DNA of 64,000 bases from Pseudomonadota bacterium (GTDB lineage: Bacteria > Pseudomonadota > Gammaproteobacteria > Acidiferrobacterales > UBA6901): positions 783,640 through 847,639 of the forward strand of contig JAJYEX010000001.1 of the NCBI GenBank assembly GCA_021785515.1. The letters are read 5' to 3'. A program made the translations under genes and the position numbers. Under the pieces are notes generated by a model. That model ran no database searches and was not told the origin of the DNA. It saw only the letters and a list, made by a program, of their open reading frames with translations. This document shows, piece after piece, positions 405 through 7,005 of this stretch (positions are counted from its first letter, which is position 1; each line of letters opens with the position of its first letter).

Positions 405-1005
405 CTGCTTGAAAATTTCCGGGGAGCCCAGCGGCGGGCTACGGATGGAAAGCACTTCGGATCCAGCTTTGCGCGGGTCGTTGCGCTTTTGCAGAACCCG
501 ACAGGGGCGGGGGCGGATAACCCGGTTTGGCAGTGGTTCTGCGGAATCCTGGATCTGATTCGGCCGTGATCCTGCAACCGGGGCGACGGGGGCCGTCGTT
601 AGAGTCAGGTTCCGCTTCGGGTTGATCCCGGCTTGCTGAAGCGGGACAACCGGCAGATTCAGGTTCGGGACCGACGCGGGCCATGTTGCGGTGGATTGGG
701 ATAGGGGCGCTCTGGGTACCTGACCGAATTCACACACATTTGGCATGCCGGTTTGCACTGGACGGTTTGAGCCGTTCAGGTCAAGGGAGCGGGCACGCCA
801 AGCCAGTCGAAACAGGCGATGGGCAGGGCGCGCTTCAAAGACACGTGGCTTTTCGGTTACCCGGACCGGTTGGCTGTGGCTCCCTCGCGGGCGTCTACGT
901 CCGATGTGCTTTGCGCGAACAACTCCGATATTTTGTCGGTTTGTTGCATCTACACGGCTTTGCTATGCGCTTTTTTCGCACTTAGTCACTCTTTGTGCGG
1001 GGTGC
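405..1005. other. Intergenic stretch, no gene recognised
   Basis: About 600 bases between the DUF945 stop and the amtB terminator. Several ORFs of 75-200 codons cross it on both strands, but none has a convincing ribosome binding site, a recognisable motif or a plausible protein composition. No tRNA-like or repeat structure is visible. Confidence 0.5.
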
Positions 1006-1033
1006 AAAAAAAAGCGGGCGCCGAAGCGCCCGC
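1006..1033 (-). terminator. Rho-independent terminator of the porin-glnK-amtB operon
   Basis: On the minus strand a perfect 8-bp stem (GCGGGCGC with GCGCCCGC, tetraloop UUCG) is followed by eight T residues. It lies about 30 bases past the amtB stop codon. This is a canonical intrinsic terminator and marks the 3' end of the nitrogen operon. Confidence 0.92.
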
Positions 1034-1063
1034 AAATGCAACCTCATTCTGATGACTGGAACG

Positions 1064-2506
1064 TCATTCCCCGTAGGCACGCTCCCCGTGCTGGGAGATG
1101 TCGAGACCTTCGCGTTCCTCTTCCTCGGTCGGACGCAGACCGACAATCATGTCCACGACCTTGAGGATGATGTAGGTCATTACCGCGTCATAAACCAGCA
1201 CTGCGCCGACGTCGATGAACTGTAACGTCAACTGGTGGAAGTTGCCCTCCAGCACACCGGCCGTGCCACCGATGGCCTTTACCGCAAACACGCCGGTAAG
1301 GATAGCACCGAGCGCTCCACCGACAGCGTGTACGCCGAATGCATCCAACGCATCGTCATAGCCAAACATGTTTTTCATGTAGGTCGCGGTCCAGAAGCAG
1401 ACGACGCCGCCGGCGATTCCGATGATGAGAGCGCCGGTCGGATCAACGAAACCCGAAGCCGGCGTGATCGCCACCAGCCCGGCTACCGCACCTGACGCCA
1501 TGCCCAGGACGCTCGGCTTACCGCGCGCCATCCACTCGGCGAACATCCAGGCCATTGCCGCGGCGGCGGTAGCAATCTGCGTGGTCGCCATAGCCATGCC
1601 CGCACGTCCGCCGGAGGAGACGGCGCTACCGGCATTGAAGCCGAACCAGCCGACCCACAGCAGCGAGGCTCCGATCACGGTAAGCACCAGGTTGTGGGGC
1701 GCCATAGGCTCTTTCTTGTAACCGACACGCTTGCCGATTACGAGCGCGGTCACCAGGCCCGCGACACCAGCGTTCAGGTGCACCACGGTTCCACCCGCGA
1801 AGTCCAGGGCACCGAGCTTTGCGAGCCAGCCGTTAGCAGACCAGACCCAGTGGGCCACTGGTGAGTACACCAGCACCAGCCACAGCGTCATGAACCACAG
1901 CACCGCCGAGAACTTGATGCGCTCTGCGAAAGAGCCGGAGATCAGGGCCGGAGTGATGATGGCGAAAGTCATCTGGAAAGCCATGTATACCGATTCCGGC
2001 ACGGCCCCCGACAGGTCGGACACCGTCGTTTTCCCCATGCCGTGCAGGAACAGCCGGCTTAGATTGCCGATAAAGGCGTTGCCGTCGGTAAAGGACAGGC
2101 TGTAGGCGATGACATACCACAGAACTGTCACCAGACAGGTGGTGGCAAAACTGTGGGCCAGGGTGCTCAGGACGTTCTTGTTTCGCACCATGCCGCCGTA
2201 GAACAGTGCCAGACCCGGAACCGTCATCATCAATACCAGCGCCATGGACGTAAGCATCCACGCGGTATCACCGGGATTGATTTTCGGGTTCGGATCCGAA
2301 CTTATTGCTTCGGTGGGTGCAGGAGCTGCTGGGGCAGCGGCGACCGGGGCAGCCGGAGCGGCGGCCGGGGTCGCAGCGGTGGCCGCGGCGGCAGGCGGTG
2401 CCGTCGGTGTCGTGCCCTCGTCGCTGAACGCCAGCATCGGAGCCGACAAGAGCAGCAGGGCTAGGACGATCCCGAAGAACGTCTTGGTACGGAATTGGTT
2501 GCGCAT
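1064..2506 (-). CDS. amtB: Ammonium transporter AmtB
   Basis: Inner-membrane ammonium channel of the Amt/Mep/Rh family, normally a trimer gated by GlnK. Family landmarks are visible: the FYGGMVR stretch after the first membrane helix, the pore histidine segments HLNAGVAGL and HAVGGALGAILTG, the FAIITPALI segment, and a charged cytoplasmic tail rich in Glu. I chose the ATG at 2506 (MRNQFRTK) over the track start at 2566: a GGGGGA ribosome site precedes it, it lies just downstream of the glnK stop, and it begins a clear signal peptide. About 480 residues. Odd: between the signal peptide and the first helix there is an Ala/Pro-rich, low-complexity linker of about 35 residues. Last gene of the operon, with a terminator directly downstream. 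Confidence 0.95.
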   Translation of the reverse strand: MRNQFRTKTFFGIVLALLLLSAPMLAFSDEGTTPTAPPAAAATAATPAAAPAAPVAAAPAAPAPTEAISSDPNPKINPGDTAWMLTSMALVLMMTVPGLALFYGGMVRNKNVLSTLAHSFATTCLVTVLWYVIAYSLSFTDGNAFIGNLSRLFLHGMGKTTVSDLSGAVPESVYMAFQMTFAIITPALISGSFAERIKFSAVLWFMTLWLVLVYSPVAHWVWSANGWLAKLGALDFAGGTVVHLNAGVAGLVTALVIGKRVGYKKEPMAPHNLVLTVIGASLLWVGWFGFNAGSAVSSGGRAGMAMATTQIATAAAAMAWMFAEWMARGKPSVLGMASGAVAGLVAITPASGFVDPTGALIIGIAGGVVCFWTATYMKNMFGYDDALDAFGVHAVGGALGAILTGVFAVKAIGGTAGVLEGNFHQLTLQFIDVGAVLVYDAVMTYIILKVVDMIVGLRPTEEEEREGLDISQHGERAYGE

Positions 2507-2522
2507 CAAAGTTTCCCCCATA

Positions 2523-2915
<393 letters not shown>

Positions 2916-4061
2916 TTAAAATTTATACAAAGCTTCGACGCCGAACGAAGACTGGTTGTCCTTGTAAGTTCCATCAACCATCTGGAACACGTTTGCGTTT
3001 GACTTGTCGTAGCGTACTTCGCCGCGCAGCTCCATTTGCGTCGTGGGCATGTAGGCAAGCGTTACAGTACCTTCATCCCATTTTTGGATGTTTCCGGTCG
3101 TGAACCCGTTTTTGTCATCGAAATACTCGAGCCGACCGGCTATCCGCCACAGACTGTTGATGTCGTAATTGATGTAACCAGCGACACCATCCCACTTGGC
3201 CGAAGATCCGCCGGCCATTGCATCCTGCTGCTGGCCTTCATCACCCTCGGCCGCCAGCGTCAGCGCGCTTGTGACACTGTAGCTGGCTACGAGATCGAGC
3301 AGGTCACGGCGCCCCACCAAGCCGGAAGGTGCCGAAGTGCCGCTCGTGAAGCCGCCGGCATCACCGCTGTAGATGTCTGCAGTAATTGAGAGCGGCTTGA
3401 CCGGTGTCGCCAGAAGACCGAGTTCAATGGTCTTGCCGTATCCGCTGGTTGCGGTCGGGGTGACAACGTTCCAGCCGTTGTTGATGCCCACAACCACCTT
3501 GTAGTCGTCATTTATGGCGTAATTGGCGCGCACGCCAGTGTGGGTTGAGGGTATTGCATAGCCGAAGAGAATTCCTCGGGTGAAGTTGTAATCCTCGGGA
3601 CTGGTGATTACCTCTTCGCCGGCCAGCGTGTCGTATTTGCCGCCCATCACGGTCAGAGGTCCGGTCGCGTACTGGAAGTAGGCCTGTTGCACATCGACTT
3701 CAGTGGCGCCGCTACCAGCAGTTCCGGAAGGCAAACCGGCTGAACTGTCCACGGTGGCGTCCGTGCCATAGTCGAGCTCCGTCATGCCGCCGAAGCCGCT
3801 GGTGGGGAGATAAGCTGCTGACAGATCGATCGTGTGCAGATCGAAACCGTTGTGTTGCGCGTCATAGACGCGATTGGGAGTTCCGCCTTTAAACAGCCCG
3901 GTCCCGGTCAGGTAGCTGTAGGAAGTATCGATATACCCACTGAACGTAATGCCTGAAGCCTGCAGAACGTCTCCCAGGGTAGGGGTTTTGTCCGCCCCCC
4001 ACACAGTCGCGGTGCACATCGCCATGCTGGTCGCAATGACGGTTTTGCTGAAGCGGTTCAT
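2916..4061 (-). CDS. Outer-membrane porin, BBP2 (OmpL-like) type
   Basis: Predicted outer-membrane beta-barrel of 381 residues. It has a signal peptide (MNRFSKTVIATSMAMCTATVWG) followed by GYIDTSYSY, a Gly/aromatic-rich pattern of alternating strands, and a terminal Phe (ALYKF) typical of barrels recognised by the BAM complex. The pattern around GYIDTSY and FDLHTIDLSAAY resembles the putative beta-barrel porin-2 family. It is first in an apparent operon with glnK (54-bp gap) and amtB, under a sigma-54/NtrC promoter, so I infer a role in letting ammonium or another small nitrogen compound through the outer membrane during nitrogen limitation. The substrate is not shown by sequence. Confidence 0.8.
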   Translation of the reverse strand: MNRFSKTVIATSMAMCTATVWGADKTPTLGDVLQASGITFSGYIDTSYSYLTGTGLFKGGTPNRVYDAQHNGFDLHTIDLSAAYLPTSGFGGMTELDYGTDATVDSSAGLPSGTAGSGATEVDVQQAYFQYATGPLTVMGGKYDTLAGEEVITSPEDYNFTRGILFGYAIPSTHTGVRANYAINDDYKVVVGINNGWNVVTPTATSGYGKTIELGLLATPVKPLSITADIYSGDAGGFTSGTSAPSGLVGRRDLLDLVASYSVTSALTLAAEGDEGQQQDAMAGGSSAKWDGVAGYINYDINSLWRIAGRLEYFDDKNGFTTGNIQKWDEGTVTLAYMPTTQMELRGEVRYDKSNANVFQMVDGTYKDNQSSFGVEALYKF

Positions 4062-4201
4062 CAGTTTTCCCTCGCGTAAAGTTTTGGTTCAGTCCGAAGA
4101 TCGTCGGCCGGAACCGGTTTGGTCTTCGCCCTGCATATGGGTCATTTCCACATTTAGCTAATCACTGCCACTGATACCTCGACCCATTGCAGGCACGCCG
4201 G

Positions 4202-4217
4202 AGCAGAATCTATGCCA
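4202..4217 (-). promoter_or_regulatory. Sigma-54 (-24/-12) promoter of the porin-glnK-amtB operon
   Basis: On the minus strand the sequence TGGCATAGATTCTGCT matches TGGCAC-N5-TTGCW at 5/6 and 4/5 positions, with the GG and GC doublets exactly 10 bases apart. The implied transcription start is near 4191, giving a leader of about 130 bases before the porin ATG. Confidence 0.8.
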
Positions 4218-4236
4218 AATGCACAAATACAATGAT

Positions 4237-4249
4237 AATCAAATGGATA
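4237..4249. promoter_or_regulatory. Possible IHF site between enhancer and promoter
   Basis: AATCAAATGGATA matches WATCAANNNNTTR at all but one fixed position and sits in an AT-rich stretch centred about 52 bases upstream of the predicted start. The position is where IHF commonly bends DNA in sigma-54 promoters; the match alone is weak. Confidence 0.35.
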
Positions 4250-4281
4250 CGAGTGATTATGAAGATTATGGCCGATTTAGT

Positions 4282-4330
4282 TGCACTGATTTGGAGCTAT
4301 CTGAAATCAGTTTTGCCTGGTATTGGTGCA
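4282..4330. promoter_or_regulatory. Two tandem NtrC-type enhancer sites
   Basis: Two 17-bp elements resemble TGCACC-N5-GGTGCA: TGCACTGATTTGGAGCT (4282-4298) and TGCCTGGTATTGGTGCA (4314-4330), each matching 9 of 12 fixed bases. Their centres are 32 bp apart, three helical turns, the spacing of the two strong NtrC sites at E. coli glnAp2. They lie about 99 and 131 bp upstream of the predicted sigma-54 start. The remaining bases up to 4620 hold nothing I recognise. Confidence 0.7.
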
Positions 4331-4620
4331 ACGGGATATCGTTTTGTTTGGGGTAATGCATTTGCGGGTTTTTGATTGGCTGTATAAACCACCGGATCGT
4401 GCAGTATTTTTTTTATGGCGGGAGGAGAATTTGGGAAACCCGCAGAGCACGGACACGCTGCCACGCGTAGTGGAAACAAAACTCAGAGCGCATCAGAAAG
4501 GGCTGCGGGCACGATCCTGGGTCAGGGTGTTCCCGAACTACCCAGCACGGCAAAGACCTGCCGCAGCTTGGGCCGTCGCCGACAATGGCGGGCTCGGTGA
4601 ATGGCAACCGAGTCTGATTT

Positions 4621-5385
4621 TTAAAGCTGCAACGTAAACCCGGGCCCAATCTCGGCAACCCGCCAGCGGCGAAATGCAGACGGAATCTGAACTTGCTGGC
4701 GCCATTCGGACGGGGACACGGGTTCCGGTAGTCCGTGCGCCGCGAGCAAAGACTGGCCTTCGCGGTAGGGGAGGGTGGAGCGCTGAATCTCCCAGGAGAC
4801 GCGCCCATGCCGGACACCGAAACTGATCTCGGGATCGAGGCGGAAAACCGCGAACGTGCGCTGTTGCGGCTTTGCGGCTCTGCCGCCACCGGCAAGGCAC
4901 AAGCTGCGGTCGAGCGCAAGAACAAAATGTTCGCCAAACACCGCAAACAGTCCACGGCGTGAGCGCCAATCTCCATAGGCGGAGCATTCGTCTTGCAGCA
5001 CCAGTGCCAGCCGGTCGTCGGTCGGGGGCGTCACTCGCTCCCAGATCTCGAGTCCCGAGGTCCTGGCGCTCTGGGTTATCAGCTTTTGCCCCTCAAGCCA
5101 CACATGTCCGCAGTCGCCGATGTCGGTAGGGGCGAGGTTGGCGAACCAGCTCTGCCAAGTAAGCATATCTCCCTGCATCTGCAGTTCCCCCGCAACGCCG
5201 CGGCGAAGTCCTATTCGACCGGAATCCGACGACGACAGATGCAGGTCGGCGTACAGCTGGCCGGTCTGCAGCCTCCAGACTTCCGAGTCTGTATCGTGCA
5301 GAATTTCAGTCTCCAGCAAACGGCGGCGCCAGAGCCCCACGAATCCTTCTGGAATCGCAACGAGACTGGACGGCTCGCTAATCAC
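4621..5385 (-). CDS. Uncharacterised protein, HRI1-like
   Basis: A 254-residue soluble protein with no signal peptide. Its features (GFVGLWRRRLLE near the N-terminus, VWRLQTGQLYADLHL, DIGDCGHVWLEG, GLEIWERV) resemble a family of bacterial proteins often labelled as related to yeast HRI1, with a repeated beta-strand fold and no known activity. The family link is from memory and the biochemical role is unknown. It stands alone: about 470 bases separate it from the TorF porin upstream and about 560 from the porin start downstream. The start is the first ATG of the frame; no strong ribosome site was identified. Confidence 0.55.
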   Translation of the reverse strand: MISEPSSLVAIPEGFVGLWRRRLLETEILHDTDSEVWRLQTGQLYADLHLSSSDSGRIGLRRGVAGELQMQGDMLTWQSWFANLAPTDIGDCGHVWLEGQKLITQSARTSGLEIWERVTPPTDDRLALVLQDECSAYGDWRSRRGLFAVFGEHFVLALDRSLCLAGGGRAAKPQQRTFAVFRLDPEISFGVRHGRVSWEIQRSTLPYREGQSLLAAHGLPEPVSPSEWRQQVQIPSAFRRWRVAEIGPGFTLQL

Positions 5386-5462
5386 GTTTGCAGATCCGGA
5401 ACGGCACAGGGTATTCCCGCTGGTTTAGGGTGTCGGGTACGCCTGGCGTCGATTCTGCCGTT

Positions 5463-5488
5463 CGTGTCGCACGGTGCCGTGCGACACG
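5463..5488. repeat. Perfect 12-bp inverted repeat, 2-bp spacer
   Basis: CGTGTCGCACGG-TG-CCGTGCGACACG lies about 80 bases upstream of the HRI1-like start. Such a long perfect palindrome could be an operator or a transcript hairpin. There is no T run on either side, so it is not a standard terminator. Confidence 0.6.
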
Positions 5489-5856
5489 CATCGAGCTGGT
5501 CTTTGTGATGAGCGGAATCCACACGCAACGCTGCACCTAGTCCTGTGCCTGGAGGTACCCGCTGACTTTGGCATCGGGTCCCGACCCAGAGATTTTCCTA
5601 ACTGATCAGAAGGCAAGCACCGTGCCAGCGTATTCAGGAACCATGGCCGGTGCGGATGGACAGGAATATTTATAACATTAACAGTCGGTTGTAACTTATA
5701 AGGCGCGGACCGATGGAGACGCGGGGATCGGCTCCACCATTCGCCGTGTCCGCGAATGATTCACCCCGGTGGCGTTTTGCACCGACCTGGTGCGCACGGT
5801 TAGGTTCGGGGAATCAGCGCCCGCACTTCAACGGTAACTGTCTGAGACGTCCCGTG
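5489..5856. other. Intergenic stretch, nothing recognised
   Basis: About 370 bases between the inverted repeat and the 3' end of the TorF-type porin gene. It includes a short AT-rich patch near 5670-5700 (TATTTATAACATTAACAG). No gene, RNA or repeat can be supported. Confidence 0.45.
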
Positions 5857-6528
5857 CTAAAACCGGTAGTCCCCCGAGATAACGAGGGTGGCATCGTTCA
5901 GTTTGCTCGTCGGAGTCTGTGTCGTATCGGTCACCGCGATTGCTGCATCCAGATCCCCAAACATGCGGCTGAAGCCTACGCTGCCGTCGGAGTAGTCACC
6001 GCCCATGGTCGGGTCAGTCAGAAAATAGTGCCCGGCATGAAGGTTAAGCTTTACACCGCTGCCGATGTCATACCGGAGCGCCCCTTCTATGTAATCGTCA
6101 TGATGCTCGAAATCATGCGACCACTTCACGGATGCCGGGCCAAAGAATAGCCGGCCATAGGCCTCCCAGAAGGCACCACGGTCCTGGCCCGGGAAAACGA
6201 ACGCATTGGAATAGGCGTGCGCACCGACATCGAACCCCAGACCGGAACTGCCCTCGTAGGCGACACCCGCATAGGCGTCGCCGCGCAGGTTCGCGCCACT
6301 GTTCGGGATGTTCTGCGTGGTGCCCCAAAGTCCGGCGTAGAACCCGCCAGGATGCTTGATTTCAACGCCACCCTGGAGGGCCGGCTGATTGTTGCTCTGG
6401 GAAATTCCGCGAAAGACGTAGTTGCTGACTACGCCAATGTTGTAGGTCGGTGGTTCGAAGCTTTGCGCCCATGCCGTACCGCTGGCAAACAGACCCGTTA
6501 CCAAGACTGCAAGAGCTAATTTCTGCAT
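5857..6528 (-). CDS. TorF family putative porin (TIGR02001-type)
   Basis: Predicted outer-membrane protein of 223 residues. The start at 6528 gives a clean signal peptide (MQKLALAVLVTGLFASGTAWA) behind an AGAGGGG ribosome site; the track start at 6750 adds a basic, Cys-rich extension that does not look coding. The mature part opens with NIGVVSNYVFRGISQS, a hallmark of this proteobacterial family, followed by GGVEIKHPGGFYAGLWGT and alternating strands ending in DYRF. Homologues are often found beside glnK-amtB. Here the glnK-amtB operon carries a different porin, and this gene sits about 1.8 kb upstream of that operon on the same strand. Substrate unknown. Confidence 0.8.
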   Translation of the reverse strand: MQKLALAVLVTGLFASGTAWAQSFEPPTYNIGVVSNYVFRGISQSNNQPALQGGVEIKHPGGFYAGLWGTTQNIPNSGANLRGDAYAGVAYEGSSGLGFDVGAHAYSNAFVFPGQDRGAFWEAYGRLFFGPASVKWSHDFEHHDDYIEGALRYDIGSGVKLNLHAGHYFLTDPTMGGDYSDGSVGFSRMFGDLDAAIAVTDTTQTPTSKLNDATLVISGDYRF

Positions 6529-6756
6529 GGATCCCCTCTGGTCCACAACGTTGAATGCTGGTCGGTGGGCTCCAGCCCGCATGCGCCGTTGCGATTTTAA
6601 GGGATCGACTCGGCAAAATGAATGCCGTCCGGCGGGCCGGCAGCACATTTCGCCGCCGCGAATCGGGTCCAAGCCCATGACGGCCGCATATGCTATTATC
6701 CCCGTCAATTCCCTGCTGCAGGCAGGACGACCGGCTCGACCTCCCATCAAGGCGAC

Positions 6757-7005
6757 ATGATCATGTCAGATACTAGTCCCATCGACCAGATCTTGGCTGC
6801 GCTGCGTGGCGCGCTGCCACAAAACATTGTGGCCGACGCCGAACGCAATCTCCGGGCAGCGCTAAACTCGGCATTCGAGCGCCTGGACTTGGTGACGCGG
6901 GAAGAACTAGATGTCCAGGCGGCGGTTCTCGGGCGCGCGCGCGCCAAGCTGGCAGATCTGGAAAAGCGGATCGCAGAGCTGGAACAAAAATCCACCAAGC
7001 CCTGA
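6757..7005 (+). CDS. ubiK: Ubiquinone biosynthesis accessory factor UbiK (YqiC/BMFP family)
   Basis: An 82-residue protein with an amphipathic N-terminal helix (IDQILAALRGALP) and a C-terminal coiled coil (LGRARAKLADLEKRIAELEQK), the standard architecture of UbiK/YqiC. In E. coli UbiK works with UbiJ in the soluble Ubi complex for the late steps of ubiquinone synthesis. Two ATGs are possible (6757 and 6763); AAGGCG lies just before the first. The much longer track ORF from 6622 is an upstream extension with no family support. Single gene, closed by a strong hairpin terminator about 65 bases after the stop, divergent from the TorF-type gene. Confidence 0.85.
   Translation: MIMSDTSPIDQILAALRGALPQNIVADAERNLRAALNSAFERLDLVTREELDVQAAVLGRARAKLADLEKRIAELEQKSTKP

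Follow-up and report, generated by a model that had tools for sequence, protein, structure and literature searches.

The porin-glnK-amtB operon and its promoter

Three genes follow one another on the minus strand of the window, by which we mean the whole stretch of 64,000 nucleotides that was analysed. The first (2916-4061) encodes a porin of 381 residues, assigned by its Pfam profile to the BBP2 (OmpL-like) family PF07642 with a match of 199.4 bits against a cut-off of 26.2, extending along the barrel from residue 38 to 381. Its predicted structure is a trimeric-porin-like β-barrel of moderate confidence (pLDDT 70.5), for which the best Foldseek matches were OmpT, DcaP and Omp32; a search of PDB sequences with the porin alignment returned no match. 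The P-II gene glnK (2523-2861, 112 aa) follows after a gap of 54 bp, and lies directly before the ammonium transporter gene amtB (1064-2506, 480 aa, with an Ala/Pro-rich N-terminal extension), from which it is separated by 16 bp. Both were identified by family searches. On the same strand, 3' of amtB, there is a strong intrinsic terminator of 8 G-C pairs and then eight T residues (1014-1033).

Read 5' to 3' along the minus strand, the region upstream of the porin contains a distal NtrC-like site, a proximal NtrC-like site, an IHF-like site and a σ54 -24/-12 element. The -24/-12 element (TGGCATAGATTCTGCT, 4202-4217) has the correct GG-N10-GC spacing and, counting from the -12 C at 4203, predicts a start at 4191. 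The promoter-proximal NtrC-like 17-mer (AGCTCCAAATCAGTGCA, 4282-4298) is centred at 4290, about -99, and the distal one (TGCACCAATACCAGGCA, 4314-4330) at 4322, about -131; they stand 81 and 113 bp upstream of the -24/-12 element and, being exactly 32 bp apart, form a helically phased pair. The -24/-12 element and the two 17 bp sites had been reported in a preliminary description of this DNA, and on re-reading the sequence all of its coordinates and distances proved correct, including the positions of the site centres relative to the predicted start. That description called the architecture complete, which holds for the σ54 element and the NtrC pair but overlooked a conserved IHF-like site between the enhancer and the promoter (TATCCATTTGATT, 4237-4249, minus strand; one mismatch to YAANNNNYTGATW).

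The predicted 5' leader is 130 nt long (4062-4191, minus strand), with a GAGGG ribosome-binding-like sequence ahead of the porin ATG, and an Rfam search of positions 900-7000 gave no match to a known leader RNA. A σ70 promoter was not favoured: where 1.8 promoter-like sites were expected there was a single one, located on the other strand. Upstream of glnK we saw no convincing internal promoter.

The geometry is a familiar one. At E. coli glnAp2, two NtrC sites 32 bp apart lie ∼100-140 bp upstream of the start and are accompanied by a -24/-12 element, and the window likewise has a 32 bp NtrC pair with a -24/-12 element, the glnAp2 figures being quoted from general knowledge. Unlike the E. coli glnK-amtB operon, which has no porin gene, the operon in the window includes one; its NtrC-like sites are the weaker ones, and it has an IHF-like site between enhancer and promoter.

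Chance expectation, conservation and regulators

The matrices used to score σ54 and NtrC sites were approximate, written from the consensus as generally known and not from a curated compilation. On this scale the single NtrC-like sites are imperfect, at 12.5 and 11.6 of 14.8, and it is therefore conservation that makes the case. The position-weight-matrix scan proposed in the preliminary description scored both kinds of element in place. Amongst 3000 dinucleotide shuffles of the 559 bp intergenic region, an equal σ54 score arose in 15 and two NtrC sites with the 32 bp spacing in one, and a 32 bp pair at that score is unique within the whole 64 kb window. Although the window has other single sites with comparable scores, the idea that the motifs are chance matches can be dismissed, as σ54 element and NtrC pair appeared together in 0/3000 shuffles and the spacing is conserved in dozens of relatives. 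Genome-wide pattern searches, compared with reversed-pattern controls, gave 57 σ54 matches (control, 24) and 27 NtrC sites (control, 9), an enrichment of two- to threefold for both patterns.

Orthologues of the porin with glnK and amtB downstream are found in the same genus at 72-75% identity, and the porin-glnK-amtB order recurs in other families and in more distant members of the class, with porin identities of about 36-51%. The preliminary description would have counted a lack of the two NtrC-like sites in relatives against its reading; instead, the sites, their spacing and the gene order are all conserved. The -24/-12 element is intact in 10/10 aligned orthologue upstream regions; in the same alignment the GTGCA half-site of the proximal NtrC-like site hardly varies, and most members have the two NtrC-like sites at a spacing of 30-32 bp. 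A common layout was seen in 43 glnK-amtB promoters with three gene arrangements. One promoter set had been selected for an upstream GTGCA-like half-site; the same elements were met without that condition in other sets, including the ten-orthologue alignment.

Between the enhancer and the promoter, a block TAA-N4-TTG-TTT occupies a fixed position. In 26/31 promoters of BBP2 or TorF porin genes an IHF-like motif (≤2 mismatches) is found with its start 31 or 32 bp upstream of the -24 element, and no other offset showed a concentration of the motif in these 31. Shuffled sequences often hold an IHF-like match somewhere, such matches being cheap in A+T-rich DNA, so the evidence for this site is its position and not its presence.

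The genome encodes one rpoN, himA (IHF-α) and a single NtrC above the curated cut-off (731 bits against 559). The genes glnA and ntrBC are expected NtrC targets, and in this genome each promoter has an NtrC site and a -24/-12 element (L140, C17:21500-26500). The sites lie 110 and 79 bp upstream of these elements, which compares well with 113 and 81 bp for the distal and proximal sites in the window. About ten proteins of the genome match much of the NtrC model, any of which might be imagined to act with σ54 in place of NtrC. An enhancer-binding protein other than NtrC is nevertheless very improbable here, since the 17-mers are of the NtrC type, glnA and ntrBC have sites of that type at comparable distances, and classical NtrC targets lie downstream. 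At a separate locus of the genome (L143, C3:67500-70500), divergent ORFs, named by eye as nifV-like and nifA-like, are accompanied by two strong σ54 elements and an NtrC-like site; judging from these ORFs, the organism may be able to fix nitrogen.

We consider it highly probable (roughly 0.88), on sequence evidence, that an NtrC-activated σ54 promoter drives a three-gene operon of the BBP2 porin, glnK and amtB. The elements, spacing, conservation, gene order and terminator are read directly from the DNA. From them we infer binding by NtrC, IHF and σ54, and a start site. Under nitrogen limitation, phosphorylated NtrC on the two 32 bp-spaced sites would act as the enhancer, IHF probably bends the DNA between enhancer and promoter, and the NtrC ATPase would then open the σ54 polymerase at 4202-4217, giving transcription from near 4191. 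Porin, GlnK and AmtB would be made together, with transcription ending at 1014-1033.

An exchangeable first gene

In the taxonomic order to which this bacterium belongs, we found three arrangements behind the same promoter layout: BBP2 first, TorF/Gcw_chp first, and glnK directly. The TorF family was confirmed by Pfam in ten proteins. The locus is one and the same, as each of the three arrangements has examples in which the promoter adjoins a divergent ubiK-like gene. Two TorF-first promoters have NtrC sites that are placed differently, one with an altered layout in which the stronger site is proximal (L129) and one with shifted sites (L126). When the identity of the first gene is mapped on a tree of 35 AmtB proteins, it switches at least 10 times, in some cases between sister operons, a number that transfer of amtB itself could inflate. 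Within one genus, the DNA of G021 (BBP2) and of G012 and G032 (TorF) is ∼75-90% identical over a stretch that opens at ubiK or at the enhancer and extends ∼25 bp beyond the predicted start, drops to background identity across the pore gene, and is 86-88% identical again from the glnK start codon. The simplest reading of this pattern is that the pore gene alone was replaced.

In a class sample of 52 glnK-amtB loci, TorF stood in front at 8 and BBP2 at 1-2. Most of the 52 had no recognised pore gene in front, although a few of these had little upstream sequence, which indicates that ammonium uptake does not as a rule depend on the porin. Ammonium in any case passes general porins. With many relatives carrying the promoter directly before glnK, and with an inserted gene that varies between lineages, the promoter might serve glnK-amtB and the porin be a passenger between the two, having no role in nitrogen uptake. 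We think this unlikely. Every recognised gene in the slot encodes an outer-membrane protein, drawn from one of two unrelated families, and the porin is intact in relatives diverged to about 40-50% protein identity. Moreover, BBP2 porins have σ54/NtrC-like promoters of their own in other settings: five BBP2 genes with neither glnK nor amtB in the nearest ∼3.5 kb are preceded by a -24/-12 element and NtrC-like sites, and the distant BBP2/DUF3138 porins L045 and L046 have σ54 and NtrC-like sites upstream, the gene after the porin at L045 being the urea-binding gene urtA. The BBP2 family is thus tied to nitrogen-type promoters beyond the glnK-amtB operon.

The stand-alone BBP2 porins that carry σ54/NtrC-like promoters are those at L028-L032. 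At L030-L032 there are ABC transporter genes nearby on the other strand, with a permease of the sulfonate/taurine/nitrate type at L031.

As far as comparison of these loci allows, then, the outer-membrane gene behaves as the exchangeable first position of a nitrogen-controlled transport operon. In the window's genus the gene order is ubiK / TorF / ORF 4621-5385 / BBP2 / glnK / amtB. The divergent ubiK-like gene (6763-7005, plus strand), which we take to be ubiK, marks the conserved locus. The TorF/Gcw_chp porin gene (5857-6528, minus strand), which heads the operon in other lineages, is here separated from glnK, and its upstream region has no σ54 site scoring >10. The promoter is carried by BBP2 instead, and in this genus TorF may have lost its nitrogen control through displacement.

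The ORF at 4621-5385 (minus strand, 254 aa, of no known family) is conserved beside the operon in the genus. Upstream of it, and all on the minus strand, are a second σ54-like element (5612-5627), an IHF-like site (5679-5691) and, ∼165 bp upstream of the σ54-like element, the best-scoring NtrC-like site in the window (CGCACCAGGTCGGTGCA, 5778-5794). The σ54 and NtrC-like sites of this promoter are conserved in G002, G003, G004 and G033. A further σ54-like site at 4994-5009 was judged to be a chance match, as it is inside the ORF, and a lipocalin/FABP-like fold for the product was not used, the model having a pLDDT of 56 and weak matches (E >0.002).

The porin and nitrogen uptake

The closest known counterpart is the nlmA(orf1)-glnK-amtB operon of Herbaspirillum seropedicae, which is NtrC-dependent and expressed 21-fold higher under nitrogen limitation; NlmA is described as membrane-associated and probably periplasmic, with no function assigned (PMC3023670). 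There, as in the window, the gene of a membrane or envelope protein comes first, followed by glnK and amtB. The first gene in the window, unlike that of H. seropedicae, encodes a BBP2 β-barrel, and NlmA is likened to it by description only. Together with the conserved sites and gene order, the presence of rpoN and ntrC and the same geometry at glnA and ntrBC, this precedent makes it very likely that the porin is co-regulated with ammonium uptake by NtrC and σ54, as the preliminary description had proposed.

Nitrogen-regulated porins are known from other bacteria. In Burkholderia cenocepacia the porin BCAL3473 responds to nitrogen and lets amines through (PMC10117139), and NtrC-dependent porins have been described there as well (PMC5491218). 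In these cases too a porin gene is under nitrogen and σ54/NtrC influence. Unlike the porin in the window, they are not reported in a glnK-amtB operon, and their -24/-12 elements have an extended spacer. FmdC of Methylophilus methylotrophus is reported to be a urea and short-amide porin (cited in PMC11064514 and PMC5877670). FmdC resembles the window's porin as an outer-membrane porin tied to the uptake of a nitrogen source, with distant BBP2 porins found before urtA, and differs in that it is reported to be linked to amides and urea whereas the porin here is linked to ammonium genes; the two are likened by role and not by sequence.

We infer that the porin is a route by which ammonium, or some other small compound of nitrogen, reaches the periplasm. 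The FmdC and BCAL3473 precedents, and the distant BBP2 porins that precede urtA, favour the possibility that it imports a nitrogen source other than ammonium (urea, short amides, nitrate or amines), and that the operon is shared as the same starvation signal suits both. We would put this somewhat short of an even chance. Among the close relatives studied, linkage is to amtB and not to urea or nitrate genes, the substrate is not readable from the sequence, and the porin model is of only moderate confidence.

In the literature searched, with most subscription journals outside it, we found no description of BBP2 in the first position of a glnK-amtB operon, or of pore exchange. The same search, directed at glnK together with a porin of the BBP2 or TorF family, gave only the Herbaspirillum precedent and nitrogen-regulated porins in general. 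The concept is already known from H. seropedicae; what is new is that, in this taxonomic order, the same promoter, often beside divergent ubiK, is followed by BBP2, by the unrelated TorF or by glnK. The promoter itself is an ordinary, good NtrC promoter. It is the exchangeable pore position that deserves a second look.

We suggest tentatively, and with rather more doubt than confidence, that the outer-membrane slot has been refilled repeatedly with unrelated β-barrels behind an unchanging NtrC/IHF/σ54 promoter, as high-affinity uptake by starved cells is limited by how ammonium or a related nitrogen compound passes the outer membrane; in the lineage of the window, BBP2 would have retaken the slot, leaving an older TorF without nitrogen control. 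The more general proposal of the preliminary description, that nitrogen limitation also remodels the outer membrane, is reasonable and plausible. In the textbook account, ammonium uptake ends at AmtB in the inner membrane, and here a conserved nitrogen switch would add an outer-membrane pore. That two unrelated pore families swap in one position suggests that the outer membrane is under selection when cells starve for nitrogen, and a single genus in which this promoter is followed by BBP2, by TorF or by no pore provides a natural comparison for asking whether the outer membrane limits ammonium supply.
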